A DNA stretch of 64,000 bases from contig OY759224.1 of the NCBI GenBank assembly GCA_963662175.1, forward strand, positions 28,219,489 to 28,283,488, written 5' to 3'. Both the position numbers and the translations under genes were made by a program. Shown here piece by piece: positions 682-62,825 of this stretch. Below the pieces are notes generated by a model. That model was not told the DNA's origin and searched no databases. It was given only the letters and a program-made list of their open reading frames with translations. Numbering within the stretch: position 1 is the stretch's first letter; the number at the start of each line of letters is the position of its first letter. This DNA comes from Aradus depressus. Lineage: Eukaryota; Arthropoda; Insecta; Hemiptera; Aradidae.

Positions 682-3600
682 ATGATTGAAGATGAGGTAA
701 ATGGTAATGTTATTCAGAATTCACATTTAAATAAATTAAGTATGCCTTCCTCGTCTCCATTCCCTAATTCAGCTACTGTAACAACCACAAGATCCAGTGG
801 TTCTTCAGCGGAAAGTTTTCCATCTCCAGGACCCAAAAAGAAACCATCAGAGTACGAATGTAAGCCTTTTTTTAAATTAATTTCTATATGTAATTAAACA
901 AAATTATATTTTCCTTTTAATGTCATTTACTTTTTTTTTTTTGCTTTTTTCATAGGTAAGAAATTAAATCGAGGTATTTCCCGAGCTACAGACAATGTAA
1001 ATTTGGTCTCAATCGCTCGTACTGAGATACTTATGGACACATGTGATCAAGAATACTCCATTGACACTCCGACCCATACATTTGCGCTTCCAGATTTAAA
1101 TGCATTCACTGGTAAGAAAAAAAAAATATATATACATAAATTTTTTATGAAAAATAATTATTTTTAAAGTTAGAATTAAATGCATGTTTTTTATAAAAAT
1201 GCAAATAATTTTATTTGTTTTAAAGACAATTGTAAGTAATATAGAGACTGTCATTGAATTGTTTCTGTCTTGTTAATTTTTCAGTGTCGAAATTAAAATT
1301 AATCATTTTATCAGTCAGTGTGATTTGACCTTGACCTTAGCACGGTTATATTTAACTCATGTAAGGAATTTAATTATTGTTTTTAAATAAGTCCTAAATT
1401 GTTTACTACGCATTTAAAATCCCCTTCAAAAAAAATATAAATAAATAAGCGATACCTACGATTTTTTACAGAGATATTGTGAAATATTTACAAAAATATA
1501 AAGAAAAACGTACGTTTTTTAAAATATTATTTATTTCACAAAATATATGGGAGTATTTTCGATATGGCTACTTCAGCCATGACAAATACTATCTGGTAGT
1601 CCAACAGATTCACATTCCGAACTGTCTCTCTCCAGCCTGGGTCCCCCTGCCTCGTTCTTCTGTATAGCAGAGTATTCAGAAATTGGAGACATGAATAAAT
1701 ATTAGGCACGAAAGTTTATTTTTAATATATTCCATTTTTTTAAGACTATTGCGGCATTTGCCACAATATGTAACTAAAATTATTAAATTCTAACAAAATA
1801 AACTAATTATGGGTGAAATGATGTTTGTGCATTTAACAAATTGATTACTGTTGACAAGAAAATGCTAATAAAATAAAAATCAGAAACTTTTCCTATCTTT
1901 AAAATAACTAAATGAATTACAGTAAAGATATAAATTGAGATAACAAACATAAATAAATAAAATAATAATTTTTAATTGTACAAACATCATTTCATGTATA
2001 AATCAGCTTATCTTGTTAGAATTTAATAATTTTATCTTTAATTTTAGTTTTACCACTGATTCCTAAGTGTACATTCATGGGGATTAACAAGTTGAAATAT
2101 GAATCCTTTTCTCCCTGATATATTACAATGGTTCGCACTCAGCAAACTGACAGTTATTTTTAGGAAGAAGCACTCCATATGCCTTCTTCAGGGTCTGTAT
2201 TGATAATATCAGTAAGGTTGTATATGCTAGGTTTGATAAAAAATATGGTAAAACTAAATGTGATTAAACCAACAAAATAACATAATAACAACTCATGCCC
2301 AGCGAGTACCTGACATCGCACAGGCTCGGGACCATCGCTTATTTACATCAAACTAAAATATTATATCTAAACACAAACAATGATACCTAAATAAAATAAA
2401 TAAAAAATAAAATTTTTATAAATAATTAAACAAAAACAAATAATATAATATATCTAAACAAAAAAAACATCCTAGTTATAAAATAATATAAATTATAATA
2501 TTGAAACAAAAGAAAATATGGTGTCACACCTATACTAAATCTCCTACGTCATTAACAAATAGAATTATCCCACTATTCAAAATAAAATAGAAATATATTA
2601 TTAATATGGTTAAAGTTTGAAATCATTGTATATCCACTCACTTCAGTGTTATTTTTAACCAAATTTAACGATGGTATAATGCCGAAACCTGTAATGTCTG
2701 CGTACAATTTTGTGTAATAGACAGTATGTCCGTGTTTCTCTACTGAGATACTAATGTATTCTTATTCACTTTTCAGAGGAGTTTAAGAACTTCCTGGTGA
2801 AGGACCTAATCGCAGTCTCAACCCAAGTCTCTCTGGAGCAGGCAAATCGCCTCAACTGGTGGACCAACTGTTGTCAGAGACTCTGGCCTTTGTCCACCTC
2901 CGGCGATGGAAACTGTCTTCTTCATGCCGCCTCCTTAGGTATTGTAAAATGTATTTTGTTCTTTAGGATTTATTTTAGTCTTCGGGAAAGATGCATTGGA
3001 ATCCAGACCTTAAAATATCACTGTAGCCCATAGATTTTTTTTATTTGGGATGTGAAAAAACCTTGTGCACGCTGTCCTTCGGATTAGACGTTATGCGATG
3101 TTCCCGAGCCTGACCTTTACCTTAGGTGAATAATGATTTAGGGTCTACCTTACAGACAAAATTGAGGACTCCCATAGTAGAGTCGGGCTCATCTGGGGAT
3201 GTTCACCAGAGTGACAAAAAAGCGCTCGGGTAGTTGAAGCCCGGGCATGTGTCATAATAATTAACCAGGAGGAAGAAATATGGACGCAACTTCTTTGAAT
3301 TAACAAAATTGTACTATTAAAAATATAATTAACGATTGATATATGAATTTCTGATCTGCTTGATGAAAATTCTCATTTTCAAAAGTATATTCCAGAATAA
3401 ACCCACAACTATTTGTCAGTATTATTTTCCCAATCGTAAGTGGTATAGGGGAAGTTATGTATTGGGCAGAAATTGAGGAAAAGTGTTTGGAGACAAAGTG
3501 AAAACTTATTTGGTTAAAAATAATCTAAGCTGGGATTCACCGACTGATATTTTTGACGATATTGGACGGAACTCGATTATTGTTTCGTGTCTTGAAGCTT

Positions 3601-6600
3601 TATTTGGTGTACTGAACAGAATACAGTAGACTCTCCCTTATCCGGCGTTCTGTTAACCGGCGCGCTCCCTTATCCGGCGCTCACAAAATAATATTAAATT
3701 TGTTAAACTAAAATTAACATTCAATTATTAGATTATCAATTATATGGGCCACGTGTATTTACTAGCACATAATAATTCCGTAACTCACGAATATTTTATG
3801 TATTTTTATTGTACGTACATACATATGTACATTGTATTTATAATGAAGGGAACGCTAATACAATATTTTATTACTTCACTAATATCCTATAAATAAATTA
3901 TAATAAATACATAGTTGAAAAACAAACATTTATAAAAAATGTTTCCTAGAATAGAAAAACAAAGGTACCGTCCCGTCCGTGGCACAACAATATCGTCTTA
4001 TCGGGAAATGAACACTTAACTAGTAAAGTATGTACATATTAGTCAATTTAATAATTGTTATCAACAAAATACATACTTGTTTTATTCCTTAGCTCACCGA
4101 AAAACACTTTTTTTTAATGGTTTAATGGATATATTTTTTCACATTAATTGATGATTTCCGTTATCCGGCGTCACGTCGGTCCCGGCAACGCCGGATAAGG
4201 GAGAGTCTACTGTACTTCAAAACCAAACACGAGACGGAGCTACTAACATGGTCATAAATAAGTTTTGTGACCTTGTCGTAGTAATGCTGCTGCAAAAGTC
4301 TTGATGATCTTGATCACTTAAAAAAAAAATCTTCGGTGATTCACCGGCAATGTACTTCCCCAGAGCGAATTAATTAATTAACTTTCCGTTCCCCCTCCAT
4401 ACCAGTTGACCGTTTATGCTAATAATCAATAGTTGACTTACATAGGGGCATACTAAATTCATTACATCGGCACTTATTAGGGTTTTTGAATTGAGCCTAC
4501 TACCCTGAAACCCCCTTCCCTTCGGCTGAAAATTAGTAAGTGTCGTCCTTATGGGGTTTTGAATCTTATGAAAATTTCGTGTCGATACATTCATTCTATC
4601 GGCAATTATTAGAGTTTTTGTTTTGAACCACCTTTCTTATTCCTCCTTCCCTTTGATCGATTTGGCTGAAAATCTATAAGTGTAGTCCTTAGAGGATTCT
4701 GAATACACATGTAAAATTTCGTGTGGATACATTCATTCTATCGGGAGTTATAGTGTTCATAGAGAGAGTCAGTAGGTCGGAAAACATGAAATTCAGTTGA
4801 AATCTTCGCATCGAATTTCTGTCTAATTACATAAATTATATAATGATACCTGACATTTTTTGCAGAGATATTGTGAAACACTTAATAAAAAGTAAAGAAA
4901 AACGTGTTTAAAAAAAATATATATTGTCTCAGAAATATATTTATAATATGGGAGTACTATCGGTATTGGTACCATCTTCAGCCACGAACAAGTTGGTAGC
5001 AATACTGAAAGTACTCCCATATTATATATATATTTGTGAAATAGACTATTTTTTTTTTACTTTCTATAATTACAACTATTACAAACGTGCTTTAACGATA
5101 GATTTGAATAATTGAATGATTAATTATTGTTTGTTACTAGGAATGTGGGGTTTCCACGACCGACTGTTGACCCTTCGGAAGACTCTCCATGGATATCTGA
5201 CCCAGTCACCCCGAAGAGAGGCACTGTGGCGGCGATGGCGCAGACAACAGGATCTACTGAATGCCCAGGCAGGTCTCCACTATAGTGAGGTGGAATGGCG
5301 CCATGAGTGGAATGCTATAGTCAGTATGGCCTCCTCCGAGCCTCGACTGCGCAGGCTCAGTGTTCAGAGGTAAGTTCGTTATTACACTCATACAAATACC
5401 CACGTACTCTCCTTGTTTATAACATGTTTTTTATGATAAATTAAACTGTTGAGCGAGATCAAGACAAAGTTTAAATAGGCCATAACCGAAATTATGGCGA
5501 TTTAAGAAATGATACAACAATTAAGCTTTAAGCATAACTTTACTCGCCTCGGTGGAAAGGACAGGCATTCTAGCTCAGTAGGTAATCTGCCATTCTCACG
5601 ATACATTGTTAAAACCCAGGATCAGTTCGTTCAGTTAATCATTTCAATTATAGTTTATAGTTAGTTATTGTGGACTCATACCCGGGCTTTAACTACGAGG
5701 TCATATCGCCTACTACCAGAGCGCTCTTTCGTCACTCTGGTGGACATGAGCCCGACTCTACTGTGGGAGTCCTTAATTTTGCCTACTCTAAATTTTTATT
5801 CACCTAGGGCAACAGGGGTCTTTAACGAGTTACCTGACATCGTACAGGCTCTGGACCATCGCTTAACGTCCCATCCGAAGGACTGCCTGCTTAAGTTTTT
5901 TTTTTTATCTGGGAAAAATAAACTAAGGGCCTCGGTTGGATTTCGAACCCACGAACTTGAGCTCAGAAGGCAAGCACGCATACCACTGAGCTACCGGCGC
6001 TTTCTTTTCAATTATATAAAAATACATTACTAAGGTCGCCAACCCCTCGACTGCCCACTCTAACCACTCAACCTCTACAGCCCCTCGACCCTAAATACTT
6101 AACCTCTTAAGTCTCTTTAGAATGGTAACACCAACCACCATGCCAATATCTTCTAATTGTTATTAATTTAATTATTTACAATGTTACAAATGTTTTTCAT
6201 TTTTAGTTATTTTCTTATATTTGAATAGTTTTCGAAGATTGCTAAGTGTTTAATTTGTAATTTCTGAATGAGATTTTCGTCTTGTCCACTTATATCTAGC
6301 ATAGAAGATTTATGAGATTCTGCGTCAGTTTTTATATAAATTTTTGCTAGCATTTATTAATTTATTATTTTGCGTTTTAGTGAACCTGGAAGTGACAGTA
6401 CAACTGGAAATATCTACGAAAGTTTGGAAGAAATACACGTGTTGGCTCTTGCCCATGTACTAAAAAGGCCTATTATTGTTGTTGCTGATACAGTTCTTAA
6501 GGTAAGTCTATTTTAAATAGTTATTGTGATTCATGCCCGGGCTTTAACTATGAGGTCATATTGTTTTTTCATCACTCTGGTGGACATGAGCTAGACTTTA

Positions 6601-9049: not shown

Positions 9050-9092
<43 letters not shown>

Positions 9093-9251: not shown

Positions 9252-9313
<62 letters not shown>

Positions 9314-12300
9314 GACAAAAAATGGAAAAATCGAGAGCATAGCGCGAAATTAGGTTTCTAACAAATGTTTCCGCCTTCTTTCCTCCTCCGTCTGATGGTC
9401 CAAATTTTCTGGCTAATGAATTATTTTTGTTCAAATTTGAATAAACGTTCGGAAGTTATTAAGCGGAGTACCTTCAGGCAGGTTAGTTACATTATCAGTC
9501 CGGTTAGTATTTTACGGTTACATTATTTTAGAAATAAGTTGAAATTTGCAATGATATTGATGCAGGTGGCTCTTTATTAGTATAGATTTTAAGAAAATAT
9601 GATAGTTTCCGTAGGCCTTACCGACCGGGTGAGCGCATAATGTGATGTCTTATAGTATCAGTTGAAACTATAGGGTTCTTTTCGGGGTTTTGTATACAAA
9701 CTTTCGTGAGAATGTGACAAAATGAGAGATATAACTCTCAGTTTAATATACACAAAAACTCTGAAACACCTGAGAACCAAAGGTGTAAGTAAGTTCTTCA
9801 GCCTGGGTCATTTTGAAGTATATCACATTGCAAACATGAAAACATCCAATATTTTTTCTTGAAATTTAAATTTTTGGTGCTTGACCTATTTGGGATATAC
9901 CACATTTCTAGGGTGTCGGTAGCTCAGTGGTATGCGTTCTTGCTTACTGAGCTAAAGATAGCGGGTTCGTAACCCGGCCGAGGTTCGTAGTTTATTTTAT
10001 CTGGGAGGTAAAATGAACTTAAGCACGCCGTCCTTCGCATGGGACGTTAAGCGATGGTCCCGAGCCTGTACGATGTCAGATACTAGTTAAAGACCCCTAC
10101 CCTAGGTTAATAAAAATTTAGGGTACGCAAAATGTAGGACTCTCATAGTAGAGTCGGGCTCATGACCAATAGATTGACGAAAGAGCGCTCTGGTAGTAGG
10201 CGATATGACCTCATAGTTGAAGTCCGGACATGAGTCATAATAATTAACTATACCACTACTATAACTAAAAATTCTAACTGTATATTCTTTGTTATTCCTT
10301 AGATTCCAACACCAGAAGAGGGCAAAAATGGCCTTCTAGGGAGCATTGGTAAATCAGTTGGGCAGAAGTTGCGGCTGAAACTGTCCCGAAGCAATTCACA
10401 AAGGCAGACCAAAACATTGCTCTCCGCAGTTCTGCACACCGACAAACGGCCTGAGTACCACGAAGTCATGATCAAGAACTACCTGGAGACGGCTAAACAG
10501 AGGTTTCAAATTCAACAGGAAAAAAATATGGTAATGATATTTACTCTAGCACATTTTCTATTCATATTTTTAGGCGTTCGGAGTTTTGAAGACCATAAGA
10601 GAAACCCTTTTAAGAAATTTATGAGGTCAGTCTGTCGCCTAATCATGTCTTGCAAGGGTCAGAACTTGCTGGCTTCTCCAATAACATTTAAAAAAATATA
10701 AAATAAATTTTTTTTTGGACATTTTGTCCTATTTGTATTGTCAAGAAACTACCTAAAGGGGCGCCGGTAGCTCAGAAGCTTACTGAGCTCAAGAACGTGG
10801 CTTTGAAACCCTTGAGCACTCCGTCCTTTGGATGGGACATAAGGCGATGGTTCCAAGCCTGTACGATGTCAGGTACTCGTTAAAGACCCCGTTATCCCAT
10901 GTGAACAAAAATCGGAGTCGGGCTCATGTCCACAAAAGGGACTCTGGTAATAGGCGATATGACCTCGCATTTAAAGCCCCGGAACTTTTCAATATTATAC
11001 ATTTCTGTAATATTTTAATTATTTATATGTATCGTCATATGTATTTGTGTTATGTTGGTCTTCTTCAATGTTTGGACATCTTTGGAAATACTAATTTTAT
11101 AAAATATTTTTCACAACGTAAATAATTAAATTAATGACAATTAGAAGAAGATATAGGCACCCTGAAACATAAAAACCAGGCTAGTGTTGCCAAAAAAACA
11201 ATATAAAAGAAGAAATACTGTTCGTTGCTAACTTTTTGTTTTTGTAGTCGGTAAATGAAAAATTAAAATAATGAAAAACCATTTCTTGTGTATAATTTAA
11301 AAAAAAAAATGAGTCTACGTTTACAAAAGTAAAAAGTCATTGCTTTACATTTTTTATTTGACTAAAGAGTACAGATAGATCCAAATACCGTGCTACTTTA
11401 CGTTTTGCGGCTTAAACAGAAGAAACAGTTACGGGAAAAAGTATAATTCGGCTAAGACAAAATAACGGAAAAATCTCTCCCTTGTCTTTTACAAAAATGT
11501 CTAAGAAACAATATTTGTAGCACAAGAAAAAGTTCGAAGTTAGTTATATAATACTTTGTTATAAATAATAACAACCTAATAACCAGTAACGATATCAAGT
11601 TTTGAACTGATTACAGGTCTACTTTGTGAAAATTCATATTGTGAAGAATAAAGAATACACACACACACACACACACACATTACTTGTCAATATTTTCGCT
11701 ATATTGGTCAAAATTACACGACTATAGTTTCGCCTGTGACAACAGTAACTAGTTACTGTTGTCACATTGCCTAAATTATGACCTTGTTTGTGTTGCCTTG
11801 TGTTTAGTTCAGCAGAACTCTTGGTTTAGTTCACTTGATAATGCCGTAAGAGGCGAAACTATAGTCGTGTAATTTTGACCAGTATAATGAAAATATTGAC
11901 AAGTAGTGTGTGTATTCTTTTATCCTTCATAGTAACGATATTTTTATTTAATTTATTTTTCTCTCTAAAATTAAATAACTGAAGATGTCCTAATAGTGAA
12001 ATAGACTGACGATATGATTCCTACAATTGTACTATAATTTCTTCCTTAGGCCGTTCTCCCATTGAGTTAACTCTATATTTGAGGTTCAATGAAAGCTGAG
12101 TGTCTAGAGGGGCTGGCTATTGAACTGAGAAGTTCAAACTCTCTCTTTACTCGTGTCTCATTATTTAATAATTGAACGGATCGATCGGGTTGTCTCAGTG
12201 GAGGAACGGCCTAAGTTTATGTATTTTTTTTTTTGCAATTTCACATCCTGCTCGAAATTTTTAATAGTAAGCATGAGTTCTTGTGCATGTCTTTAGTTTT

Positions 12301-18256: not shown

Positions 18257-18330
18257 CTCTGTATATTTGAAACTAATAATCGTAAAGTTTTAAATAATGC
18301 ATCATTAGATATGATACTTAACATTTCTTT

Positions 18331-18565
18331 TGCAGAGATATCGTGAAACACTTAATAAAAAGTAAAGAAAAAACGTATGTTTTTAAAAAAATATTGTCTA
18401 TTTCATGAAATATAATATGGGAGTAGTTTCGATATTGCTACCATCTTCAGCTACGATAAATGTAGCAATACCGAAAATACTCCCATATTATATATATTTT
18501 GTGAAATAGACAATATTTTTTAAAAAACATACGTTTTTTTCTTTACTTATCTATCATTAGTGTTT
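18331..18565. mobile_element. Inverted-repeat hammerhead element (family A)
   Basis: Arms 18331-18454 and 18458-18565 share AAAAAATATTGTCTATTTCA and ATAATATGGGAGTA-type sequence in inverse orientation. The left arm keeps a hammerhead core; the right arm has lost CTGAAGA. Confidence 0.75.
18418..18453 (-). ncRNA. Hammerhead motif, canonical core, damaged stems (family A)
   Basis: On the - strand: CTGAAGA, unpaired T, stem II GGTA-GCAA-TATC (one G-U pair), GAA, ACTACT (stem III no longer self-complementary), H17 = C. Stem I has one mismatch in three pairs. Confidence 0.6.
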
Positions 18566-19744
18566 CAAGGTTGATAAATAGTGAATAAATAATAATAATG
18601 TCACGTACAACATTCATTTACAATAAACCGAAATGTTTTGTCAATTGGCACTTAACAATTTTTAAAACAAATCCGCAAAAAAAAAAAAAAAAAAAAGAAG
18701 CTTTAGTTTGTTAAATTGTTACAATGAAGCAATATTGTTATACATTTCACATATTTTGTTATTTGTTGTAAGATTTAATATAAGGGGCGGTTCAGCTGAT
18801 GAAGAATGACATTTGGACAAAAATATAAAAAAACAAATATATATATTTTTTTGAATTTTGCTAAATGTCTCTATTAATAAAACTCATCAAAAATTCCGAA
18901 AATTATTATATATTATTTTTTACCTTCAATTCGATGAGTTGTGAACGAGATACTTACTAAAATGTGAAAAAATAAAATTCTTCTTCTTATTTTAGTCCTC
19001 AAGTATGAGCTGAATCATCGTGTTATATTGTATAGCTTAAACATTTCTTCTCCATGTATTAAAGTTGGTTCATTTTATTAATTTTTATTTTATTGTAATT
19101 CTTGTTAAAATAATAATAATAATAGGTGATGAACTTGCCTTGTATATACCTATAAATAAGATATATTTACAGTTATGGCATTTTTTGCTATTCTATGTTG
19201 TGCCAACTTTATTTTTTTTTGCAAAATGATAGTGCTGTTAACTGATTGATTTTTTTGGAGTGAGACAAATTATATACTTATGTAATATATTATAGTCTAA
19301 TATTAAAGGTAAATAATTGAAAATTATATTCCTACATTTTTTTTTTCTCCTCTTGGCCTGATGTTATATTCCTACATTTTTGTTATAAGTTTACCATTAA
19401 ACAAAAAATAAATTACTGATTTTGTGAATTAATATTAAAATTTAAGTTGAGAGTTCCTCCCTTCCTGAGGTCTCTCCCCCAGTAAAACATGCGATGAGTT
19501 TACCGCTTACCAAGAAGTAGAATATCCGCTATATTCTGGCCATTTTTTTTTTTTTTTAATTTTTCAAATAATAATTAAAGTACCATTGCATTATTAATTG
19601 ACAAAAAATTTCTTTGGTAATTTAAATTGTCTTGCTCTTAATTAATTTCTGAGTTGTACACATTTACAATGTTCTGTGATTAGTACTACTGATACCTACG
19701 TAAATTTTAATTCTGCTGTTTATTCAATTAATGTTAGATTGATA

Positions 19745-34043: not shown

Positions 34044-34065
34044 CTTATAAATGATGATTATAAGT

Positions 34066-34101: not shown

Positions 34102-34151
34102 GTATTTGAGAAATATAGTGAGGAATTTCTTGGAGGTTGTGAGCTGTATTT

Positions 34152-34392: not shown

Positions 34393-34499
34393 ATATATAG
34401 TGAAGTTTGACAAAGAAATTGTGTATTTTAATTATCTATTCCTAGAATGGAGCTTCACAAATCAAATCTGGAAACCATAAATTAATAGATATCTACGTT

Positions 34500-35686: not shown

Positions 35687-35728
35687 CAGAACCGGTTTTC
35701 GACGCAACAGCGTCATCATCAGTGGTTC
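35687..35728 (-). ncRNA. Hammerhead ribozyme motif, canonical core (family B)
   Basis: On the - strand: stem I ACCA, core CTGATGA, unpaired T, stem II GACGC-TGTT-GCGTC (5 pairs), GAA, self-complementary stem III AACCGGTT, H17 = C, stem I TGGT. Every conserved position is canonical and both open-end stem I strands pair (ACCA with TGGT). This is one of the best motifs in the window. Confidence 0.85.
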
Positions 35729-35780
35729 ATCCCACCCACACAGCACAGCGGTTGGAAGATAACTGGCGAGTGGAAGATAA

Positions 35781-35818
35781 CTGATGATGACGCTGTTGCG
35801 TCGAAAACCGGTTCTGGT
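35781..35818 (+). ncRNA. Hammerhead motif, canonical core, stem I lost (family B)
   Basis: CTGATGA (35781-35787), T, GACGC-TGTT-GCGTC, GAA, AACCGGTT, C, TGGT. The sequence before the core is GATAA instead of ACCA, so stem I pairs poorly. Confidence 0.65.
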
Positions 35819-36675
35819 ATAAAATAAAACAGTGGGAAGCCAACGTCTTTTATTTCTATTAGAAATCTCGTCCCACAACATCTTACTATCACATATGAAA
35901 TTACATTTTCTGAAGTTACGTTAATTTACTTCTGATGGCACAATTTATCGTATAATAAATAAATATACGTTATTCGAGAGATTGAACAATTTAATGATGA
36001 TTTATACTATATATTAATTTTTTGTATAAATTAAGTTCCTTTCATATTGAAGAATCCACCTTTCGAACACGAGCATTACGGATATATAAAATATACATGA
36101 ACATAATATTTCATAAAATATATATATGTACATATAAATGATGATGCCAAAAACTATAGAAAAACACAATATTTGCATTTTTCTAAATGAAACTATTAAA
36201 ATGCGAGGTACAGAAGAGACTGCACTGCTCTTATACCCTTTCCAAGTAAATGCAAATACTTGGTTTTACATGGATGCGAGTTCTTCAACTTGGTGATATT
36301 ATATATGAATAACATTACATTCATCTGTTGCGATGTAATTTTTAGAAAAAATTCCCTGTATTTTAAACTAAATCGACATTAATTTAAAAAATTTAATACT
36401 CAAGTTCTCTCTTCGTATGACAAATATATATCAAATATTATAGACCGATTATTTTATTGTATTATTTTTTTCTTAATTTCGTTTTATTTAAAAATATATA
36501 TATATATATATAATTTAATATTTAAAAAAACATATATCTTTCAAACTTCTTAATAACAATTATAGTTTTTAAAAGTATTCCTTGTTCTGAAGAGAATATA
36601 AAAAATATTTAAATGAATATACCTTTTAATATATAAAAATAAGGTCTTAAAAATATATTTTAAAAAAAGCTAATA

Positions 36676-39600
36676 TTAAAGCAAAGAAGTAAGATTAAGG
36701 AAGCGTGGCATTTTGGATGTAAGTTTAAGGTTGGAGCCTTGCCAGACCACAACCTGGCCCTGGCTGGTCGAGGCGTAGAGGTGCTGAGCGTCCTGCGAGT
36801 AAGTCAAACTGAAACGAAAATAGATAGCCATTAGGAAATATGTATCGATATATATCGGGTCGATACGATCATTCTATCGGCAGGTTCACACAGACAGATT
36901 TTTATTTTTTCATTTTCGGAATCAGGGGGTCGAAAAACATGAAATTTCGTTGAACCTTTAGATATAATGAACGTATCAACATGAAATTTTGTATGTGTAT
37001 CCAGAACCATCTAAGGACAACATCTATTGATTTTCAATGAAAACTGACATTATTGCAGAGATATTGTGAAATAATTCAAATGAACTTGAAGAAATAAAAC
37101 TTGTTTATTTATGATATTGTCTAATTTCACCAACTATATTTACATGGGGGTACTTTCGGTATTTCTACCATCCTCAGCCAAAAGCATAAGAGATAAGACT
37201 TATCTCTTATGCTTTTGGCTGAGGATGGTAGAAATACCGAAAGTACTCCCATGTAAATATAGTTGGTGAAATTAGACAATATCATAAATAAACAAGTTTT
37301 ATTTCTTTCAAGTTCATATTGATTTTTAGCCAAATCGGCCAAAGGGAGGGGGATTAGGGGAGAGGCTCGACACAAATACCGTAATAATTGGCAATGTAGG
37401 GCACCGATAACTTAGAGGCTAAGTAGACTAGAGTATTGTCTAGTATATTGGACAGAATTTCTTAAAATCAAACAAAGCAGCTTAAAGAAGATCATAAAGT
37501 GTATGATCTAATGCGGTAAAAAAAAAAAAAAACTATTATACAATAAGAGCAACACAGGGTCATGAAATTAAAATAAGGGAGGGGGAGGGGAGAGCACTCC
37601 CTATCTCGAGACCCACTTTGAGGTATGAAATTAGTAAACAATAAAGGGCAAGGCCCTTAGGTTGTTTTATCTCGGAGGTGAAGAAACCTTGAGAACGCCG
37701 ACCTTCCAATGGGACGTTAAGCGATGGTCCTGAGCCTGTACGATGTCAGGTACAAGTTAAAGACTACAGAGAGCTCTGATAGTAGGCGATATGATCCCGT
37801 AGTTAAAGCTTGGACATGAACCACAAAAACTAAGCTTCTGGGTACATTTGTAATATTAAATTATAATATAAACAAATGCCTGGATACGATAAAAATGCTC
37901 ATGTTAGTGTGACTCATGCCCGGGCTAGTTCATATAGCCTACTACCAGATCGCTCTTTCGTCGCTTTGATGGACATTAGCTCGACTCAATATGAAATTCC
38001 TAAATTTTGCCTACCCAGGTTTAGTTATCTAGGGTAGGAGTCTTACGAGTAGCTAACATCGTATGGAACATCGCTTAACGTCCAATCCGAAGGACGACAT
38101 GCTCAAGTCCTCGACTGGGTTTAAAATTTTGAAATAATCATTTTGGGGAGGGGCTGTATAGATGCTCTACACAAATCAGTCCTTTCTTACAATCATCATT
38201 TATTTGAAAAAGGTTCTCATGAAATTCGTTCATTCTGAATTGTTCATAAAAATATTTAATATGAGGCGCTTCCGACCAAAAGGGCGAACTCAACAATTGC
38301 GAGTTTTAAGAAAATCTCAATTAAAGATTTTTAACCAAGGGCGAACTCAAACGGGCGACCCCGTAGTTAAACCTTGGACATGAACCACAAAAACTAACTA
38401 ACTGCCAATGTATCGACACAAAATTTAGTAAGATTCAGAAGTCCCTATAAAAGTTATAGATGTTTATCCCAAACTCGATTGGAGAGCAAACAATTGATTA
38501 ATACGTGCTGGGGAAGTACCCTATCAATGATTCACCGACGACTTTCTTAAGACCTCTTCTCATAGTGTTTCGAAATGATTTTAGAATCTTCAATACAAAC
38601 CGGGAAATTATTCTCATGTGTATTAAACTAATTTTAAGATGTTATAACATGGAGTAGACAACAAATGTGGTCTTTTATGTTCACTTTACTGTTGTGAACC
38701 TAAGTAGAGATATCAAACAGAGGTAACCTATAATGGATCAGTTAATTTGGGCCAATACAGTAGATTCCTTTTCGAACAAGCTCACTTCAAACAGGACACA
38801 TTAAATGTATTTTTGAAATGATTTGAAAAAAAAATTCAATGAAAATGATATCAAATAACATGGAATAATGAAGTATCGAAACGAAATTACCTTATGATCG
38901 GTTGATTAATTCCGTGAGCTGTGATTTTCTTAACAAACGTCAGATCCCAAGTGCTCCACAGTCTGGAAAACATTAAAAGAAAGGTCATTTTTCATAAATA
39001 ATTTTATGAATTAATAACAATTAAAATGCTCTACACTTATCTCATTTATTGAGCTGAGTTTACGAAGCTCTTTCTTAGGCGACTCATGTGTAAACCCCTT
39101 TACCGATCACATTGAACATAAATTGAAAAATTGTAAAGCTGTGATAAATATATTATATATAAATTCAGAATTTCTTTATACAAAATAATTCTCATTTTAA
39201 ATATTTAATATACAAAATGAGGCCATGGGGACACACTTCAAACGGCCCATTCTTGAGTTATACACAGAGCTAGATAAGTATAAACAAAGAGACAAATGAA
39301 TAATTTATAAAATAAATAATTTATAAATGTTGTTATTTAAGTTTGTTGAGCGCGGTAAGACCTTTAGAATGTCACTATTAACTTTATATATCTCTTGAGA
39401 ATGAGGAGGCAAGAACTGTAAACGAAGGGTCTTCCGAATGGGTTTTTTAAATTATTTTATCATGAAAATAAGACATCAGGTAATTATAATTAAAGATTGT
39501 TTGTTATCAATCCTCAATTATTTTAATTGCTTGTTATTTGGATGAAAGTGGGGAAGGGGAACTCACCCAACAGATCCGTCAGTGAGTCCAGCGGCTATGA

Positions 39601-48600: not shown

Positions 48601-51600
48601 AATTACTATGAACAATAATCATAATGAGGGTACCACATATTAAAGACAGAAAAGATTTTAGTTTCAAAAAATTCTGTACACCATGAAGGATACTTTGAAG
48701 TTTAAGTACATAAATATTACATAGAAAAACTTTGCTAAAGTATAACTCGATTTTTTTTTTAATATGCCCCGAAGTGTCTTTATTGCAAAAAATTTGTTCG
48801 TCTGTTTGTCAACACGATTCTGGTCAAACTAGGCTATTACATGGATCGAAACAAAATTATGGTAGGATGTTCGACATCCTATGTAGAAAGACTCCTATTG
48901 TTTTGGGACAAAATAGTCGCAGGCGCAGAATAAAAATAAAATAAAACGGTATACTTTTCATAACAATTTCTTTCAAATTTGTAATTCAAACAAAAATAAA
49001 ATTTCAAAAATAAAACTATAATATACCTGATAGCTGAGGAACATCTTGGTGAAGGGTGGGAGTCTTACAAGAAAATGGAGAACCACCCCCGAGTTGGAGT
49101 AGTGGGAACAGTAGTGGTAAGGTTCTTGGTTGTAGGATATCTCATTTGTGGCGTCCGTCTTCAGATACTAGAAAAAAAATATATATGAAAATTAATAAAT
49201 TGTAATTTTACCTTTTCAATTTAATTTTCAAATTGTTTAGTTAGTTATTGTGACTCGTTCGGTCATATCGCCTACTACCAGAGCGCTCTTTCATCGCTCT
49301 GAAAATGAGCCCAACTCTACTCTGGGAGTCCTAAATTTTGTCTATCATAAACTTTTATTCACCTAGGGTAGGGTTCATTAACGAGTAACTGACATCGTAC
49401 AGCCTCGAGACCAACGCTGTTCGGCGAGCTAATATTTTTTTTTTCACTTCCAAAATAAAAAAACCTAAGAGCCTCATTCAAATTTCGAACCCGCGATCTT
49501 GAACTCAGTAAGCAAGCATAGTATCTCTAACTACGGGCACCCTCTTCAAATTGTTATACTTATATATGTTCTTTGACATGCCTTATTTCCAAAACATGCA
49601 AAAAATAGTTTACGGGCTGAAATATTTTTTTTTCTCATTTTGACTTGTTTATATGTTTCTGAATAGTTATTGTGACTCGTTCGCACTGGCGATATGACCT
49701 TGTAGTTTATCGCCTACTACCAGAGCGCTCTTTCGTCGCTCTGAACATACGCCCGACTCTATTAGGGGAGTCTTAAATTTTGCCTACCGTAAACTTTTAT
49801 TTATTTACAGTAGGGTTCTTTAACGAGTACCTCACATCGTACAGTCTCCAGACCAACGCCTTATATCCAAAACATGCAATAAAAAGGGAGTTTACTGGCT
49901 GAAATGTTTTTTTTTATTTTGACTTGTTTATATGTTCCTGAATAATTAGTTATTGCGATTCATGTCCGAGCTACCAGACTACTACTACCAGAGCGCTCTT
50001 TCGTCACTCTGGTGGACATGAGCTCGATTCTACTCCTAAATTTTGCCTTACTATGTTTATTCACCTTGAGTAGGGTGTCTTCAATGAGTATCTGATATCG
50101 TACAGGCTCGAGACCATCACTCAATGTCCCATCCGTGCTCAAGGTTTTTTTACACCCCAAATAAAAAATCTAAAGCGAGTTTCGAACCAGTCAGTAAGCA
50201 AGAGGCTTCTGAGATTAATATTTTGAATATTTCTTTTTAACGTTTTGTCTTCTTATTTTGACTTGCTAAAAAAATACGTTCCTGAAGTTTGGTCTAACGT
50301 ATTTATTATATAACTAACATAGTGTAACAATAAGTATTACTTACGTTATAATTATTGATATAATGCTGTTCATTTTTCCTTTCTTGAATGGCCATCGGTT
50401 TCATTAAGTTCCTGGGAACATAATAAAATTAAATAAAACAATTATAGAAAAGGCAAAATAAAAGTTAGGGAAAATAGTATTTATTTATTGGAAAGATTTC
50501 AGTTATATTTAGGGAAAATTCATGTAGTCAGAAAGATATTACATGAATACTCAAACAAAAAATAAATAAAACAAACTTCTTTTTTGAAATATTGTCTATT
50601 CCACTAAAGATATTTATAAAAATAAAACTACCGGTTTCGGCCTCACACTAGGTCTAGTTATGAACTATTATTTTGACTTGTTAGTTATGAACTATTATTT
50701 TGACAGTTCATAACTAGACCTGACGATGGTGTAAGGCCGAAACCGGTAATTTTATTTTTATAAATATCTTTAGTGGAATAGACAATATTTCAAAAAATAA
50801 GTTTGTTTCATTTATTTATTACAAATTCCACAATATGTCCGCGTTCCTCAACTTAGAAGTACTCAAACAAAAGTCAATATTTCCACTACATTGGACAGAT
50901 TATACGAATCGAATCTTAGTATAGGAAGAAATACCGTCCTATTTGTGAGAGGGATAGACAGATGGAGTATAAGAGGTCCAACAGAGAACTGTACACAAGA
51001 GTCCGAACTTAGTGGCCTCAGGAAGGAGGAGTTTGTAAGAGCAGAAGAGTATATGGCGGAAGGATGTGTGTTAGGAAGACCTTAGGGTGAGACTAGCGAA
51101 GGAATGTCGACCGGTTTCCGAGATACATGCCGAAAACCATCTTGAAATGTAGTTTTGAAACACATATTTTCAGACGTTTCCTTGATTTACTCGAAAACGG
51201 TTAGTCCTATCGAGAAATGGATTCTTACAAAAATTGTTCCTTATAAAATTTCCAATCGTTAATAACTCCTCAAATTTGAGGTAGGATCAATAGACAAAAG
51301 TTATAGCGCCCCGAAAAATGTAAACTTTAAGAAATATAATTTTGAAATCGTAACTTATGCAACGAACTTTAAAATATGGTTTTGTATTGGTAGTTTTTTT
51401 TGAAAAATTAAGAAAAATATGTGTGACATGACCATTACAGGATTTTATACCAACAACGCTTACAGATCATTCTCTCTCCCCCTCCCCTTCTCAAAATCAT
51501 TTCATTTTGTCTCTTTGTACAGCGCATCTTGAGAGTAGACATTCTTATACCCAGTAATGCCAGTATGAAATAATTTTGTGAAGGGGGAAGAGAGTGATGT

Positions 51601-59300: not shown

Positions 59301-62300
59301 ATGAGTCATAAAACCTAACCTAACCTATAATAGAAAAAAATAGTCGATGAATCACCGGCAATGTACTTCCCTAGTATGAATTAATCAATTACATTTTCGC
59401 TCCAACTCCAAAACCAATCAACCGTTTGGGTTAAAAAAATATTGACTTACTTAAGGGCATCTAAATACCCATACTAGGCTTTTTCAGTCAAGCCTTCCTC
59501 CTCTGATATCCATATTCTTGGGCCGATTTCGCGGAAAATTAATAGCTGTCGTCCTTATGGGGTTTTGAATGTAAATATAAAATATCATGTCGTTAGATGT
59601 ATTACAACGGCATTTATTAGAGATTTATACCTCCCAGATTCGGTATCGGTTTGCTAAGCTAGGAGAAATTGGAAAAGTAGGGAACATGGCTAATCTGAAG
59701 AGGGAGGTAACCTGGATAAGAAAGGAGTTGTGGTTGTCCTGAGGGAAGAGTCGCAAAGATCAGACATTGAATTTAAATTGGATAAACAAATGATGATAAA
59801 AAAAAGTTATAATAATTAGTTAGCCTATAAGGCTTTTCGTGGACACTAAAAACATTGTAATGAAAAATACTTATGAAACAAAAATTTAAACAATCACGAA
59901 TATTAGATAAAGTTACCTGAGTAGAGCTGATTATAAATGTGAGTACATCTTTAGATCTTGGTTCGTTCAGAATGGAGTAAATTGTAAACATTTTCAAATT
60001 TCTGCTATGTCTTGGCGAGAGAAGCCACAAGAACATTTGAGCACCAAGACCTCTAAAAGTATAAAAGACAATTTTAAAAACATTATAATTAAATACAGCA
60101 CATAATTTCAAAGAAAAATGTTTCATTTCCTTTGAACCAAATATATTTTTTTGGAAACTTCTCGACACATGAATTTTCTGTTTTAAAGAATAAAAACTTA
60201 AATTATTATTAATTAAACATGATTTTACCTGAGAATATCTCTATTTGCGTAAACTACGTTTGACCAGGAGGTTTTAGTTGAGAGTGATTTTCGCTCAATG
60301 ACTGTAACTAAAGACTGTAGAAGATAGTTCCAAACTTCTCTCACAAAATCAACAACTTTCATCATTTGAGAGCTTAGGACAACCTCATTTTCATTGACTG
60401 GCTCTGAAAAAATAAACAAAACATTTAATAATAATTAAAAAATAAAAATGTCGCCAAGCTTGTCCTCAAGTTACCATTAACAATGTTCAAATTCCTTCCT
60501 CTAACCAAGGACGCTATCCCTACTTTTTACCTGGACAGTAGACTAACATGGAACTCACATACAAGACTTAAACAACAGAAACTGAATCGACGTTACGGAC
60601 TACTCTGACAACAAACTAATAATATATATATATATATATATATATTGATTAACAGAGTCAACAGTATCTTTTCAATGGAGAAGGAATTCGAGGTTCTGTC
60701 GTGTAAATGAAAACTCAATATTTGGCCAACGTTTCGGAAACTATTTATTTCCATCTTCAGGGCAATGCAATGACTTGAGTGGATGTGTGTGGTGAAGGTG
60801 TTGAGAGTTTGTGTGCACACCTTGAAGGAGGAAATAAATAGTTTCCGAAACGTTGGCCGAATATTGAGTTTTCACTTACACGACAGAACCTCGAATTCCT
60901 TCTACATATATATATTATTTAAAAAATAATTATCTTATTAGTAGCGATGGTATAAATGCTGTCTTACCAGTATAAACCACAAAGTCTGTTGCTTTACAAA
61001 TAACGAACTTGAATCTCTCGATAAGGTCATTTTTGGACAGTTTTCCAAGAGTATTCAAACTTGATGAACTAGAAGATGGCTGGTGGTCCATGTCGTCACT
61101 ACTCAACGATATAACTGCCAAAACAAACAAATAAGATAAGTATAATTTATAATTGTAAATATATTTTGAAAGCTTTCATAAAATATAACATAATGTTTTC
61201 TATCTTCCTAGCGCAAGAGCACACTTTAGAAATTATATTTTTGCGGCAACCCTTTAGAATTATTATTGTTATTTGTATTTATAAATTGTTTTTCAAAAAA
61301 GCGACTCAACATGAGAATTGTATTAGTTTAAAAAAAAAATAATGGTTCGCCATCAGTAAACTTGTCTTAGTTTCTAACTAAATCTGTAGACGGCGTTATG
61401 CCGAAACCGGTATTATATATATAAAACTTTCGTGGAATAGACAATATTTTTAAGAAAATAATTTTTTTTTTATTAACGTATGATGGAAATTGCCATTTTA
61501 AGAAAAGGCAGTAAGGGGGTTATCTTTTCGCAATTATTACGCACAGAATTACTTATTTTCTTTTTGGATTGTGTAAGGAGATTCATAAATCATATATAAT
61601 ATATTAATACAAGTTATAGAGATCGAAATTATGCTGCCATATCAATTTTCTAACTATTTACGAAGAAAGAACGCTAGTCTAGGCTGTTCTATGGCATTAT
61701 AAAAACCCAGGCCGGCATAGCGACTCACACACTCTCACTTTTGTACAAGGACACTCACTATCTTGTATTCAATTTTCATTGTGGGTCTATTATATTATAG
61801 TTTATTAATTGTATCTAGTTATTTCACTTATATCTGCCAAGCCGTGGCTGGACCCCGATTTTAAGTACAATATATATTTATCTGTTTCTCTTGTGTCTCT
61901 TTTATTACGATACCACTACCCCTCATTAGATATTCACTTCCACTGCGTATGCCCTAGAGATAATAATCCTAATTAACTGGTTATAATGTTAATAAGGTGG
62001 TAGCAGTCTATATCTGTAATAATAAACTGGTAACAGCGTGGTTATCGTAATAAATTGGTAACAGTCCGTGGTAATATACAGCATCATTTCTCCCATTTAT
62101 TTTTGGCCTTCTCAAAAAAATAGCAATTACAAACATTTCTGGAAGCACTTCCGTCATCAGTATCTATAATACATGTTACTTAACATTTTTTGCAGAGATA
62201 TTGTGGAACACTTAATAAAAAATATAAAGAAAAACGTATGTTTTTTTAAAATATTGTCTATTTCACAAAATATATGGGAGTACTTTTGATATCGCTACAA

Positions 62301-62825
62301 TGTTCAGCCACGACTTAGTAAATACTGAGGCTATCAACGCTCAGCATTTGTTATGTCCTGGCTGAACATGTAGCCCCATATATTTTATCTATTTTGTGAC
62401 ATAGACAATATTTTTTAAAAACTATTTCTTCAGTCAATCAAAACCTTCCTTTTATATAACATATTTATTGAGTTGACTTCTATATTTAAACACTTAGCTA
62501 AACCTTTTCAAGACTTGGTGTTTAAATATAAAAGTCGACTCAATAATTGCCATTTTACGATTGTAAATGCCATTTTTTTTAATAATCTTTAATAATATAT
62601 TATATTACTTCTGAATTATAATTTTCCTGAAAGCGTACCAGATGAGAAGAAAGAAGGCCGCGAAGTGTGAGCGTTGATAGCCTCAGTGATGGCTTTGATG
62701 GCAGATCGGAGCAGACAGCACTGTGCCAGTTTGAGGGCCTCACAGCAGGCAGCACTAGGACTGCAACCAGTCGTCACCTCTAGACCGTGACAGAATTCCA
62801 ACTGGAGGATCACTTCACCAAGGAC
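36676..62825 (-). CDS. LYST: Lysosomal-trafficking regulator (LYST/mauve), C-terminal 20 exons, 5' partial
   Basis: Exons in transcript order: 62825-62639, 61114-60968, 60403-60229, 60052-59917, 58675-58440, 57669-57448, 55376-55270, 54095-53890, 52726-52607, 51928-51684, 50411-50345, 49167-49027, 47433-47195, 46230-45944, 44812-44594, 42864-42684, 41641-41431, 39784-39567, 38962-38891, 36808-36676. They sum to 3,549 nt, 1,182 aa plus stop, with every phase closing. LYST is a giant cytosolic BEACH protein controlling size and fusion of lysosome-related organelles; its loss causes Chediak-Higashi syndrome. Order here: helical region, PH-like domain, BEACH domain, WD40 repeats. [20 protein letters not shown] and [17 protein letters not shown] place it with LYST rather than NBEA, LRBA or WDFY3. 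Animal LYST proteins are usually above 3,000 residues, so most of the N-terminus lies beyond 64000. The donor of the 44812-44594 exon is GTTCAT. A 3' end near an AATAAA on the - strand around 36455 is plausible. Confidence 0.96.
36850..37030 (-). mobile_element. Rearranged MITE fragment of the ACTTCCCCAGC family
   Basis: It contains GTCGAAAAACATGAAATTTC and the motif ATGAACGTATCAACATGAAA with TTTTGTATGTG, in mixed order relative to the reference copy. It lies in the last LYST intron. Confidence 0.4.
37145..37180 (-). ncRNA. Hammerhead ribozyme motif, canonical core with a stem III mismatch (family A)
   Basis: Left-arm partner of the 37216 motif, read on the - strand, sense to LYST. Core CTGAGGA, the four-pair stem II and GAA are identical. 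Stem III reads AGTACC instead of AGTACT, which breaks its closing pair. Confidence 0.7.
37216..37251 (+). ncRNA. Hammerhead ribozyme motif, canonical core (family A, GGTA stem II)
   Basis: Stem I strand TGG (37216-37218), core CTGAGGA (37219-37225), unpaired T, stem II GGTA-GAAA-TACC (37227-37238), GAA (37239-37241), self-complementary stem III AGTACT (37242-37247), H17 = C at 37248, then stem I strand CCA. All core nucleotides fit the CUGANGA...GAAA...UH consensus. With a 6-nt palindrome as stem III it would probably cleave as a dimer, as reported for Penelope-associated hammerheads. It sits in the right arm of a near-perfect inverted repeat and is antisense to LYST. Confidence 0.82.
37645..38217. 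repeat. Second copy of the composite SINE(+)/SINE(-) repeat
   Basis: It repeats 13909-14535 in the same order, including the linker AAACAAATGCCTGGATACGA and the tail ACACAAATCAGTCCTTTCTT. It lies in the last LYST intron. Confidence 0.75.
38400..38545 (-). mobile_element. MITE fragment of the ACTTCCCCAGC family
   Basis: It ends GTGCTGGGGAAGTACCCTAT and CAATGATTCACCGACGAC, the inverse of the family's left end. It lies in the last LYST intron. Confidence 0.6.
40264..40594 (-). mobile_element. tRNA-derived SINE, nearly full length, inverted
   Basis: It opens with the inverted tail GGTTAGGTTAGGTTTTATGA and closes with CACTGAGCTACCGGCGCCCT. Both pol III boxes are intact on the - strand. LYST intron, sense to the gene. 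Confidence 0.88.
40965..41115 (+). mobile_element. Family C hammerhead inverted repeat, decayed
   Basis: Outer ends ATTGTCCAATTCCACA and TGTGGAATTAAACAAT are inverted. The + strand core at 41049 is CTGGCGA (A6 changed), with stem II GGC-GTAA-GCC, GAA and ACCAGT. LYST intron. Confidence 0.6.
41889..42128 (-). mobile_element. tRNA-derived SINE, inverted, with an internal 27-bp duplication
   Basis: The segment AGAGCGCTCTTTCGTAGCTC is repeated twice in tandem at 41933-41985. Left and right portions belong to the inverted family. LYST intron. Confidence 0.7.
42384..42640 (-). mobile_element. tRNA-derived SINE, inverted, degraded
   Basis: Inverted tail TAGTTAGTTATTATGACTCA and body through TTCGATCTTGAGCTCCCTC. 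LYST intron just downstream of the 42864-42684 exon. Confidence 0.7.
42975..43135 (+). mobile_element. tRNA-derived SINE fragment
   Basis: Motifs GGTCGAAACCTGGCCGAGGC and GGGACGTTAAGAGATGGTCC with the 5' head and the tail missing. LYST intron. Confidence 0.6.
44076..44455 (-). mobile_element. MITE of the ACTTCCCCAGC family, reverse orientation
   Basis: It begins TTACTTCCCCAGCAATACGA and AGGGGAAGTAATGTAATCGG and continues through the inverted core. It lies in the LYST intron between the 44812-44594 and 42864-42684 exons. Confidence 0.65.
44968..45222 (+). mobile_element. Truncated copy of the pogo/Tigger-like MITE
   Basis: It matches the first about 250 bp of the 3624-4212 element almost base for base, including CAGTAGACTCTCCCTTATCC, then breaks off abruptly after TTATTACTTCACT. 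It lies in a LYST intron. Confidence 0.85.
46632..46670 (-). ncRNA. Decayed hammerhead-like motif (family H)
   Basis: On the - strand: TGATAAT box, stem II GAC-TAGAGC-GTC, GAA, stem III ACGT, H17 = C. Position 3 is G, so the 3-8 pair is lost and activity is unlikely. LYST intron. Confidence 0.4.
46811..46830 (+). repeat. Run of 20 guanines
   Basis: A homopolymer G tract in an otherwise AT-rich LYST intron; on the transcribed (-) strand it is a C run. Confidence 0.95.
46880..47075 (+). mobile_element. MITE fragment pair of the ACTTCCCCAGC family
   Basis: A forward fragment (GTTGACTTACATAGGGGC) is followed by an inverted one (TTTAGTATGAGGTTTCAGAA), suggesting a head-to-head deletion derivative. 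Confidence 0.45.
47980..48520 (+). pseudogene. LINE 3' end: ORF2 C-terminus, 3'UTR and TA tail
   Basis: An ORF ending at 48364 holds [20 protein letters not shown] and [18 protein letters not shown], the same C-terminal motif class. It is followed by a 3'UTR-like stretch (GGGGGAAGCCCAGCGCTTCC) and a TA-repeat tail at 48493-48516. It lies antisense in a LYST intron. Confidence 0.7.
49236..49545 (-). mobile_element. tRNA-derived SINE, inverted
   Basis: From TTAGTTAGTTATTGTGACTC to ACTACGGGCACCCTC, full length but diverged. LYST intron. Confidence 0.75.
49660..50215 (-). mobile_element. Two further inverted SINE copies in a row
   Basis: 49660-49860 lacks the head; 49945-50215 extends to a degraded head. 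With the copy at 49236 this makes three inverted copies in about 1 kb, separated by a repeated spacer (GGCTGAAATGTTTTTTTTT-like near 49620 and 49900), which suggests local tandem duplication of SINE plus spacer. Confidence 0.65.
50590..50815. mobile_element. Inverted-repeat hammerhead element (family C)
   Basis: Arms share TATTGTCTATTCCACTAAAG and TATTTATAAAAATAAAACTA in inverse orientation, with an extra duplication of GTTATGAACTATTATTTTGA in the middle. LYST intron. Confidence 0.75.
50716..50753 (+). ncRNA. Hammerhead motif, canonical core (family C)
   Basis: Stem I AGAC (50716-50719), core CTGACGA (50720-50726), unpaired T, stem II GGT/GCC-like with one G-U, GAA (50739-50741), stem III ACCGGT (palindrome), H17 = A. 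In the opposite arm the downstream strand is GTTT, which pairs fully with AGAC; in this arm it has mutated to ATTT. Confidence 0.65.
51418..51640. mobile_element. Inverted-repeat element, MITE-like
   Basis: Arms of about 70 bp share GTGTGACATGACCATTACAG, TTTTATACCAACAACGCTTA and a CTCTCTCCCCC stretch in inverse orientation around a 75-bp loop. It ends about 45 bp from the 51928-51684 LYST exon. Confidence 0.7.
52170..52440. repeat. Second copy of the 24300 repeat
   Basis: Same order of motifs, with an internal duplication of AACCATCTCGCAAATAC. LYST intron. Confidence 0.6.
52842..53180 (-). mobile_element. tRNA-derived SINE, full length, inverted
   Basis: From GAGTTAGTTATTGTGACTCA to GAGGTACCGTGGCCCTCTT, including the head complement GGCCGGGTTCTGAACCCGCG. 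LYST intron, about 230 bp from a forward copy at 53405. Confidence 0.8.
53221..53324. repeat. TA microsatellite
   Basis: Two long TA runs separated by TAAATATATAATAAA. LYST intron. Confidence 0.95.
53405..53748 (+). mobile_element. tRNA-derived SINE, full length, with target duplication
   Basis: The tRNA-like head carries a pol III A box (TAGCTCAGTGG) and B box (GGTTCGTAACC). The body includes GGGACGTTAAGCGATGGTCC, and the tail ends ATAAAACCTAACCTAA. A 12-bp target duplication AATTTTAAATGA flanks it (53393-53404 and 53748-53759). It lies in a LYST intron, antisense to the gene. Confidence 0.9.
54340..54590 (+). pseudogene. LINE ORF C-terminal fragment
   Basis: Contains [20 protein letters not shown] and [14 protein letters not shown], then [20 protein letters not shown]: the common RRRGRPRxRWL...W tail of insect non-LTR ORF2 proteins. 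An in-frame stop interrupts it. LYST intron, antisense. Confidence 0.7.
56060..56570. repeat. Minisatellite (~36-bp unit) split by a SINE
   Basis: Units such as GCTGGGTACCACAGCTAGTA with CGTAGTTAGGAACGC occur before (56090-56125) and after (56460-56565) the SINE at 56119. About four units in all. LYST intron. Confidence 0.75.
56119..56460 (+). mobile_element. tRNA-derived SINE, full length, with target duplication
   Basis: Almost identical to the 53405 copy. It is inserted into a minisatellite unit and flanked by GTTAGGAACGC on both sides, an 11-bp target duplication. Confidence 0.9.
58996..59327 (+). mobile_element. tRNA-derived SINE, full length, with target duplication
   Basis: Same family, with intact A and B boxes. 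Flanked by TATAATAGAAAA (58984-58995 and 59326-59337). It has a short internal deletion near 59210. Confidence 0.9.
59345..59635 (+). mobile_element. MITE of the ACTTCCCCAGC family, 3' truncated
   Basis: It begins GATGAATCACCGGCAATGTA and CTTCCCTAG, and holds CTGTCGTCCTTATGGGGTTT. It is cut off before the right end. It lies in a LYST intron. Confidence 0.6.
60679..60904. mobile_element. Inverted-repeat hammerhead element (family G, GGAAA stem II)
   Basis: Arms 60679-60752 and 60830-60904 share AAGGAATTCGAGGTTCTGTC and GGCCAACGTTTCGGAAACTA in inverse orientation. LYST intron between the 61114-60968 and 60403-60229 exons. Confidence 0.8.
60725..60763 (-). ncRNA. Hammerhead ribozyme motif, canonical core, sense to LYST (family G)
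   Basis: On the - strand: stem I GCC, core CTGAAGA, unpaired T, stem II GGAAA-TAAATAG-TTTCC (5 pairs), GAA, self-complementary stem III ACGT, H17 = T, stem I GGC. All core positions canonical. It is transcribed in the sense direction inside a LYST intron. The opposite arm has a mutated core. Confidence 0.82.
61384..61460 (+). mobile_element. Family C single-arm hammerhead relic
   Basis: CTGTAGA box (A6 changed to U), stem II GGC-GTTAT-GCC, GAA, ACCGGT, H17 = A, then the shared outer arm CGTGGAATAGACAATATTTT. LYST intron. A weaker relic of this family lies at 2668-2705 (+). Confidence 0.55.
62171..62425. mobile_element. Inverted-repeat hammerhead element (family A), decayed
   Basis: Same outer sequence (TTTTGCAGAGATATTGTGGA, TATTGTCTATTTCACAAAAT) and inverted arms. 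The core has decayed to CTGAACA, with CAAA in place of GAAA. It lies just downstream of the first LYST exon in the window. Confidence 0.65.

Follow-up and report, generated by a model that had tools for sequence, protein, structure and literature searches.

Eight hairpins built on one catalytic plan lie in the window, the 64-kb stretch of Aradus depressus DNA analysed here (Table 1). By their boxes and stems I-III they are type I hammerheads with a short stem III, and are predicted to be ribozymes. The core was sought as CTGANGA, a spare base, stem II, GAA, a palindromic A..T stem III and H17, with any stem I. Six cores were found: 34313, 35781, 37219 and 50720 on the plus strand, and 60760 and 35722 on the minus strand. 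All six lie inside hairpins named in a preliminary description of this DNA. Sixty dinucleotide shuffles gave a mean of 0.13 cores (maximum 2), and the true box order ranked first among 540 box permutations on the real sequence, the runner-up yielding 2 cores; the shared hammerhead plan proposed in that description is therefore real. A stricter scan of the window found 2 cores, against 0.02 in shuffles. Stem I reaches at least 3 bp in four of the six (1 bp at 35781, none at 50720). With stem III left free, YTGANRA boxes and a stem I of at least 3 bp select six window sites: stem III is palindromic in five, and the sixth (16811, minus strand) is low-complexity sequence.

A covariance search had been suggested as a check. 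With Rfam models only, the window gave no match at the gathering score, and 37 matches at E <= 10, none of them a hammerhead. The boxes and stems are present, yet these are not standard hammerheads by the Rfam library. (MicroRNA matches at E <= 10 were set aside, as they look like generic long-hairpin matches.)

The preliminary description had listed ten sites. The elements at 11.7, 18.3, 34.0, 34.2, 35.7, 37.1, 50.6 and 60.7 kb stand; those at 22.7 and 23.4 kb scored in no structural scan of the window, and no core was seen in an inverted repeat at 23111-23312. Its eight inverted-repeat elements were likewise found, with a core or relic in at least one arm rather than a core in each (at 18.3 kb, the inverted repeat with its core relic was judged by eye). 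Its nine or more unrelated families shrink to about five sequence groups. One family comprises the copies at 1.5, 4.9, 12.5, 18.3, 19.8, 37.1 and 62.2 kb (69-91% over 32-227 nt), with the 50.6-kb element as distant kin (76-78% over 63-70 nt); the 11.7- and 34.0-kb elements are 78% alike over 59 nt. Those at 34.2, 35.7 and 60.7 kb matched none of the other elements in mutual comparison. The statement that no sequence is shared outside the boxes is thus incorrect in part.

Table 1. Coordinates of hairpins, hammerhead cores and associated features in the window
Feature	Position	Strand	Remarks
35.7-kb hairpin	35643..35897		leader copies paired head to head, tail at right end only; copies in genome
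Target-site duplication, 35.7-kb hairpin, left	35631..35642	+	AAATTACATTTT
Target-site duplication, 35.7-kb hairpin, right	35898..35909	+	AAATTACATTTT
Intact hammerhead, 35.7 kb	35685..35726	-	stem I 4 bp, stem II GACGC/GCGTC, stem III AACCGGTT, H17 = C
Second core, 35.7 kb	35780..35815	+	junction removes 5' side; stem I 1 bp; right arm from M43
Tail, 35.7 kb	35862..35897	+	between two inferred reverse-transcription start sites; meaning as in the available part of PMC11167929
60.7-kb hairpin	60646..60907		tail = left end, 60646-60676
Hammerhead, 60.7 kb	60725..60763	-	stem I 3 bp, stem III ACGT, H17 = T
34.0-kb hairpin	33951..34484		interrupted by nested 34.2 element; tail at right end 34439-34484, past 34.2 insert
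Variant hammerhead, 34.0 kb	34068..34100	+	TTGATAA (U3, A8), stem III ACTAGT
Variant hammerhead, 34.0 kb left arm	34008..34040	-	same TTGATAA type as right-arm core
34.2-kb hairpin	34122..34392		inside right arm of 34.0; left end longer, tail-like; limits by eye
Hammerhead, 34.2 kb	34308..34351	+	stem I 5 bp, stem III AGCTGGCT, H17 = A
37.1-kb hairpin	37036..37320		family of 18.3, 4.9, 62.2 kb; left end longer; limits approximate
Hammerhead, 37.1 kb	37216..37251	+	stem I 3 bp, stem III AGTACT, H17 = C
50.6-kb hairpin	50557..50820		sole core 50720 (+), without stem I
11.7-kb hairpin	11673..11913		variant core TTGATAA at 11835 (+), stem III ACTATAGT
18.3-kb hairpin	18304..18567		core (-) decayed
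Relic hairpin, 18.3/37.1 family	4831..5057
Relic hairpin, 18.3/37.1 family	62173..62420

Other features of the window include repeats of about 350 bp, roughly 77-91% alike and on both strands (5642-6017, 9910-10252, 53405-53758, 56121-56455, 58983-59336 and others); a 260-bp stretch present twice at 94% identity (3621-3880 and 44965-45220); exon-sized BEACH-domain pieces on the minus strand (45915-46286 and 51650-52009); and an exon-sized A20 zinc finger piece on the plus strand (13358-13645).

A window scan with all 16 base pairs at core positions 3 and 8 returned C-G six times, U-A three times, and C-A, G-A and G-G once each; the remaining 11 combinations had no match. The U-A matches are the 34.0- and 11.7-kb elements. 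That these two cores are decayed was considered and rejected: across 21 copies of the 34.0 family, 41/41 arms that were located read TTGATAA, which is therefore that family's own core. (Most copies have stem I ACTC/GAGT, with stem III ACTAGT.) In the genome, the variant stem type with Y at position 3 and R at position 8 has 3141 matches, against none for the reversed pattern; among the first 100 matches listed, seven read TTGATGA and the rest TTGATAA. The claim of strict covariation is limited, because the related TTGATGA group has a U3-G8 wobble and because members share descent. Variant-core pairs within 6 kb of each other, again among the first 100 listed, are head to head 26 times (8 of these in one repeated segment), tail to tail never, and on the same strand 5 times. 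One tandem array has the variant core downstream of a 452-aa open reading frame (ORF) of the type found in Penelope-like retrotransposons (PLEs). According to the available part of PMC11167929, C3 and G8 are interdependent in the hammerhead of a lizard element; our literature searches, with partial coverage of the key hammerhead papers, returned no report of a natural U3-A8 hammerhead. The replacement of the C3-G8 core pair by U3-A8 provides a natural family of predicted hammerheads to assay.

Two further observations concern such sites. A lone hammerhead-like site on the minus strand of the window (46668) has G at position 3, A at position 8 and stem III ACGT. At G000:C1 221919-705079, inverted variant-core pairs recur eight times at intervals of 65-76 kb, a pattern that suggests either a tandem duplication of large size or a repeat in the assembly.

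Copies of the hairpin families in the genome

The 35.7-kb query gave 1606 first-look candidates in the 698-Mb genome. The best 40 were scored, all near full length, and 30 loci of scored copies were aligned as a whole-hairpin sample. Their outer ends are fixed, and two arms of one sequence enclose a differing centre. Arms were measured on a reference, M, which is one real arm of 161 nt (from L008) with the core at 44, the cut after 77 and the tail from 125. Each of the 30 loci is a head-to-head pair bearing a single tail; the long arm ends at M158-161 and the short arm at M122-131 in 30/30, and a target duplication of at least 10 bp is present in 29/30.

So that hairpins would not be selected for being hairpins, the query for a blind sample was limited to 84 nt immediately downstream of the cut site, with the tail arm given and the rest free. 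It yielded 940 candidates; the best 40 were scored, all identical at 84/84 positions, so part of the family is young. Thirty of these 40 loci were read. Head-to-head hairpins make up 27 of them, the second arm ending at M122-131 in 27/27, with a duplication of at least 10 bp in 24. The other three (L038, L051 and L060) are unspliced PLE copies and were left out of the hairpin counts. One place occurs in both samples (L005 = L043), and the pooled set holds 56 distinct hairpins. The counts come from best-scored copies, some of which arose by later duplication. A single end carries the tail in 56/56, and most insertions in both samples are flanked by 10-16 bp target duplications. One arm thus stops at an outer 3' point, the other at an inner one; the two points are about 37 nt apart, and the hammerhead lies between them and the 5' end, where 66 of the 112 arms start at M1-M5.

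Head-to-head order and the one-sided tail also hold for three further families. Exactly one tail was found in 19/21 members of the 60.7 family (20 genome copies plus the window copy; L065 has no tail and L081 a weak second one), in 20/20 genome copies of the 34.0 family, and, by eye, in 12/12 hairpins of the 34.2 family. The tails of these families differ; the plan is common to all. Family counts cover the best-scored copies, 12 to 56 per family, and copies with common flanks (L079 and L080; L137, L140, L141, L146 and L155) are not independent. A crude search for target duplications in the 34.0 family gave at least 10 nt in 13/20, unevenly. Six 34.2-family places chosen for partial matches (L168-L173) are mostly single arms.

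Penelope-like copies and their leader

The three non-hairpin loci of the blind sample lead to the source. Two of them (L051 and L038, read more widely as L061 and L062) run through an unspliced intron and beyond the leader start. The third (L060, read as L063) is broken off within the intron and stands head to head with an ORF-bearing copy, in which the PLE ORF adjoins the same hammerhead. Its open piece of 300 aa has 110 relatives among 5.8 billion proteins: most have PF26215, many have a reverse transcriptase (RT) or GIY-YIG domain, and eight have PF26215, RT and GIY-YIG together; the named ones are mainly from insects. Pfam found no domain in the piece itself at 0.001, and its GIY-YIG match fell under the cut-off (E 0.013). 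The PLE protein has at least 132 matches in the genome, most of them in two families, about 97% and 46% identical, whose ORFs reach 868 and 859 aa, with tandem spacings of 2969 and 2819 bp. Of neighbouring ORF matches up to 8 kb apart, 15 stand head to head, 0 tail to tail and 11 on the same strand; three of these 11 are probably fragments of a single copy. The pair L099/L100, which is head to head and ORF-bearing, was read by eye: a tail is present at just one end, and 12 bp are repeated in the flanks.

Past the ORF, PLE copies continue with a leader exon, GTAAGT, an intron of about 90 nt, TAG and the hammerhead exon, followed by the tail or the inner end. The hairpin arms are this leader minus its GT-AG intron: 57 hairpin entries gave 94 spliced matches, no unspliced match, and none extending upstream of the leader start. 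Donor and acceptor are both present in 17/20 ORF-side stretches, the other three having no leader or core match, and in 17/20 of a second set, where two have no acceptor match and one has neither. Two spliced leader forms differ by one G, and PLE donors with and without the extra G both exist: the longer form predicted +1 G donors, and 6/19 donors in the second set are of this kind. (An extra junction C was considered as a copied mRNA cap and rejected; PLE DNA has G before CCAG in 42/46 matches.) In the 35.7 family, then, each arm is a copy of the PLE leader with its intron removed at GT-AG; its 5' end is sharp, and its 3' end falls at either of two fixed points. The arms join by their 5' ends, and the junction varies. 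The leader start, the splicing event and the template strand are deduced from DNA. Splicing tracks the 5' end, as expected if short inserts derive from transcripts beginning at the leader start and long ones from read-through RNA.

Splicing is shown for the 35.7 family only; the 34.0-family leader, read by eye, is about 20 nt with no apparent intron to lose. The source of the 34.0 family contains the 452-aa ORF, 45-47% identical to PLE-type proteins. Among the 35.7, 34.0, 60.7, 34.2, 37.1 and 50.6 families, a PLE source has been traced for the first two.

Two neighbours of Penelope copies may be recorded here. A tandem array with a unit of about 45 nt lies directly outside one copy (L087, G000:C7:1905050-1905800, from about position 340), and L061 carries a LINE ORF whose relatives reach at most 50% identity among the 120 matches listed.

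Origin of the hairpins

The hairpins are very probably short insertions made by PLEs of the same genome. In the mechanism that we propose, the PLE protein would nick both target strands and prime reverse transcription from each. Synthesis would start internally on two spliced mRNAs, or on one mRNA used twice; each cDNA would extend toward the 5' end, and the two cDNA ends would be joined within the insert. Two passes over the template are needed, because the arms cover overlapping parts of it and stop at two fixed points. If each strand primed its own start, on separate leader RNAs, the outcome would be head-to-head order, one tail, a short duplication and a variable centre. A transcript starting at the element's own start would give a copy of no more than roughly 160 nt, because reverse transcription starts near the mRNA 5' end, and hence a great number of small ribozyme hairpins; the ORF-bearing copies that keep the intron would derive from RNA reading through from a tandem copy upstream.

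The lizard system offers biochemical precedent. In the available part of PMC11167929, each strand is nicked and extended by the purified PLE protein, which initiates at two internal sites; the tail corresponds to the sequence that separates them. That part describes no start-site difference between strands in vitro, so the lizard work gives no reason to expect that each arm strictly uses one site. It also states that core mutants did not lower insertion. In the inserts read here the ribozyme is part of the copied leader, and there is no sign of cleaved RNA as template.

A more speculative extension, which we think doubtful, is that the self-complementary stem III pairs two Penelope RNAs for one dimeric reverse transcriptase, the hairpin being a fossil of the RNA dimer. 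If so, there would be one RNA per nicked strand, with differing start sites, and the ribozyme would be kept for template pairing and timed cleavage rather than for template processing. Retention for pairing would explain why the core pair is maintained even as U3-A8.

The preliminary description had instead envisaged self-copying snap-back ribozyme elements, each hairpin being transcribed and inserted whole. This we consider improbable. The hairpins are very many, and some centres recur: L068 and L078, among the 19 of 20 readable centres of the 60.7 family, share an identical non-palindromic centre with different flanks and tails on opposite ends, and four junction classes of the 35.7 family, other than complete-to-complete, recur at two or three loci each (9 of 56 loci in all). 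Short-homology joining could give some of these; whole-hairpin copying could too. However, a self-copying unit should have the same centre across copies, and the 56 copies of the 35.7 family fall into 48 junction classes. Their centres resolve into two copies of the leader, in most cases with one or both shortened: both arms are complete in 12 hairpins, the tail arm is cut back in 25, the other arm in 17, and both in 2. Moreover, L015, L027 and L028 have a common junction with the tail on either side, which plain unit copying does not give. Since the outer ends are fixed and the centre varies, snap-back copying is not supported as the main route.

Self-priming, in which cDNA folds back and copies itself, or alternatively an antisense RNA template, was proposed in PMC3846280 (as far as its available text goes) and would suit the palindromic junctions and head-to-head order. 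It seems quite improbable here. The leader arms show sense GT-AG splicing; fold-back cDNA should put a tail on both arms, and only one has it; and the 5'-cut-back arm is sometimes the tail arm and sometimes the other (the 25 and 17 of 56 above), which does not follow from fold-back of tail cDNA alone.

Metazoan retrozymes, non-autonomous direct-repeat elements that spread via circular RNA, likewise have type I hammerheads, no ORF and high copy number (PMC7761336, available part). They are a very improbable source: the repeats here are inverted rather than direct, the arms cross the cut site and 0/112 begin at M78, the first base after it, and it is the PLE leader that makes up the sequence. 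DNA transposons of the fold-back or MITE-like kind that have the motif in their inverted repeats by chance would account for inverted ends and target duplications, and can practically be dismissed in view of the unequal ends (one tail), the variable centre, the spliced leader and the PLE source.

Relation to known elements

Insertion by a PLE, as preferred here, resembles the twin priming of LINEs, in which both target strands prime cDNA and an inversion results; it differs in that the arms overlap on the template. Minimal type I hammerheads dispersed in animal genomes were reportedly described by Cervera and de la Pena in 2014 and by Lunse et al. in 2017. The accessible text of PMC7761336 gives such hammerheads a tiny stem III or none and thousands of mostly non-coding copies, thought to cleave as dimers, and calls the role of these dispersed small ribozymes a mystery. 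The hairpins share the small stem III and the many copies; in contrast, their origin is traced to leader insertions in one family, and a U3-A8 core is seen. Insertion of Penelope leaders is a candidate explanation for how animal genomes came to hold thousands of scattered small hammerheads. The retrozymes of PMC7229834 and PMC7761336 are, in the portions available, also small, non-coding and equipped with a type I hammerhead, but consist of direct repeats with circular RNA rather than inverted pairs of uncut leader.

The preliminary description rightly recognised hammerheads with a short stem III, of the Penelope type, set head to head in hairpins of several families. It took the layout to be undescribed; Penelope hammerheads, terminal repeats set head to head, and the tail have all been published. 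The available parts of PMC3846280 and PMC11167929 report inverted Penelope terminal repeats head to head, with palindromic junctions and a tail on one. Literature searches found no earlier report of the spliced-leader origin, the strict asymmetry or the U3-A8 core.

The closest known systems are elements of the Penelope/Poseidon type with pLTRs: PAc of Anolis (PMC11167929) and the Adineta families (PMC3846280). As described in the available parts of these papers, they share with the elements studied here a PLE ORF in tandem units; a terminal repeat containing a hammerhead close to where the ORF begins; a head-to-head inverted terminal repeat with a tail at one end and short target duplications; and an internal start of reverse transcription. 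They differ in two respects: the copies read here are mostly leader hairpins that lack an ORF and were built from spliced leader, and in 56/56 loci of one family each arm uses a different one of the two 3' end points. The available text of PMC3846280 left open whether the template is sense or antisense, whether self-priming occurs, and how introns are kept. For the family tested, the present results suggest that the short inserts were templated by spliced sense leaders and the ORF-bearing ones by intron-bearing read-through RNA.
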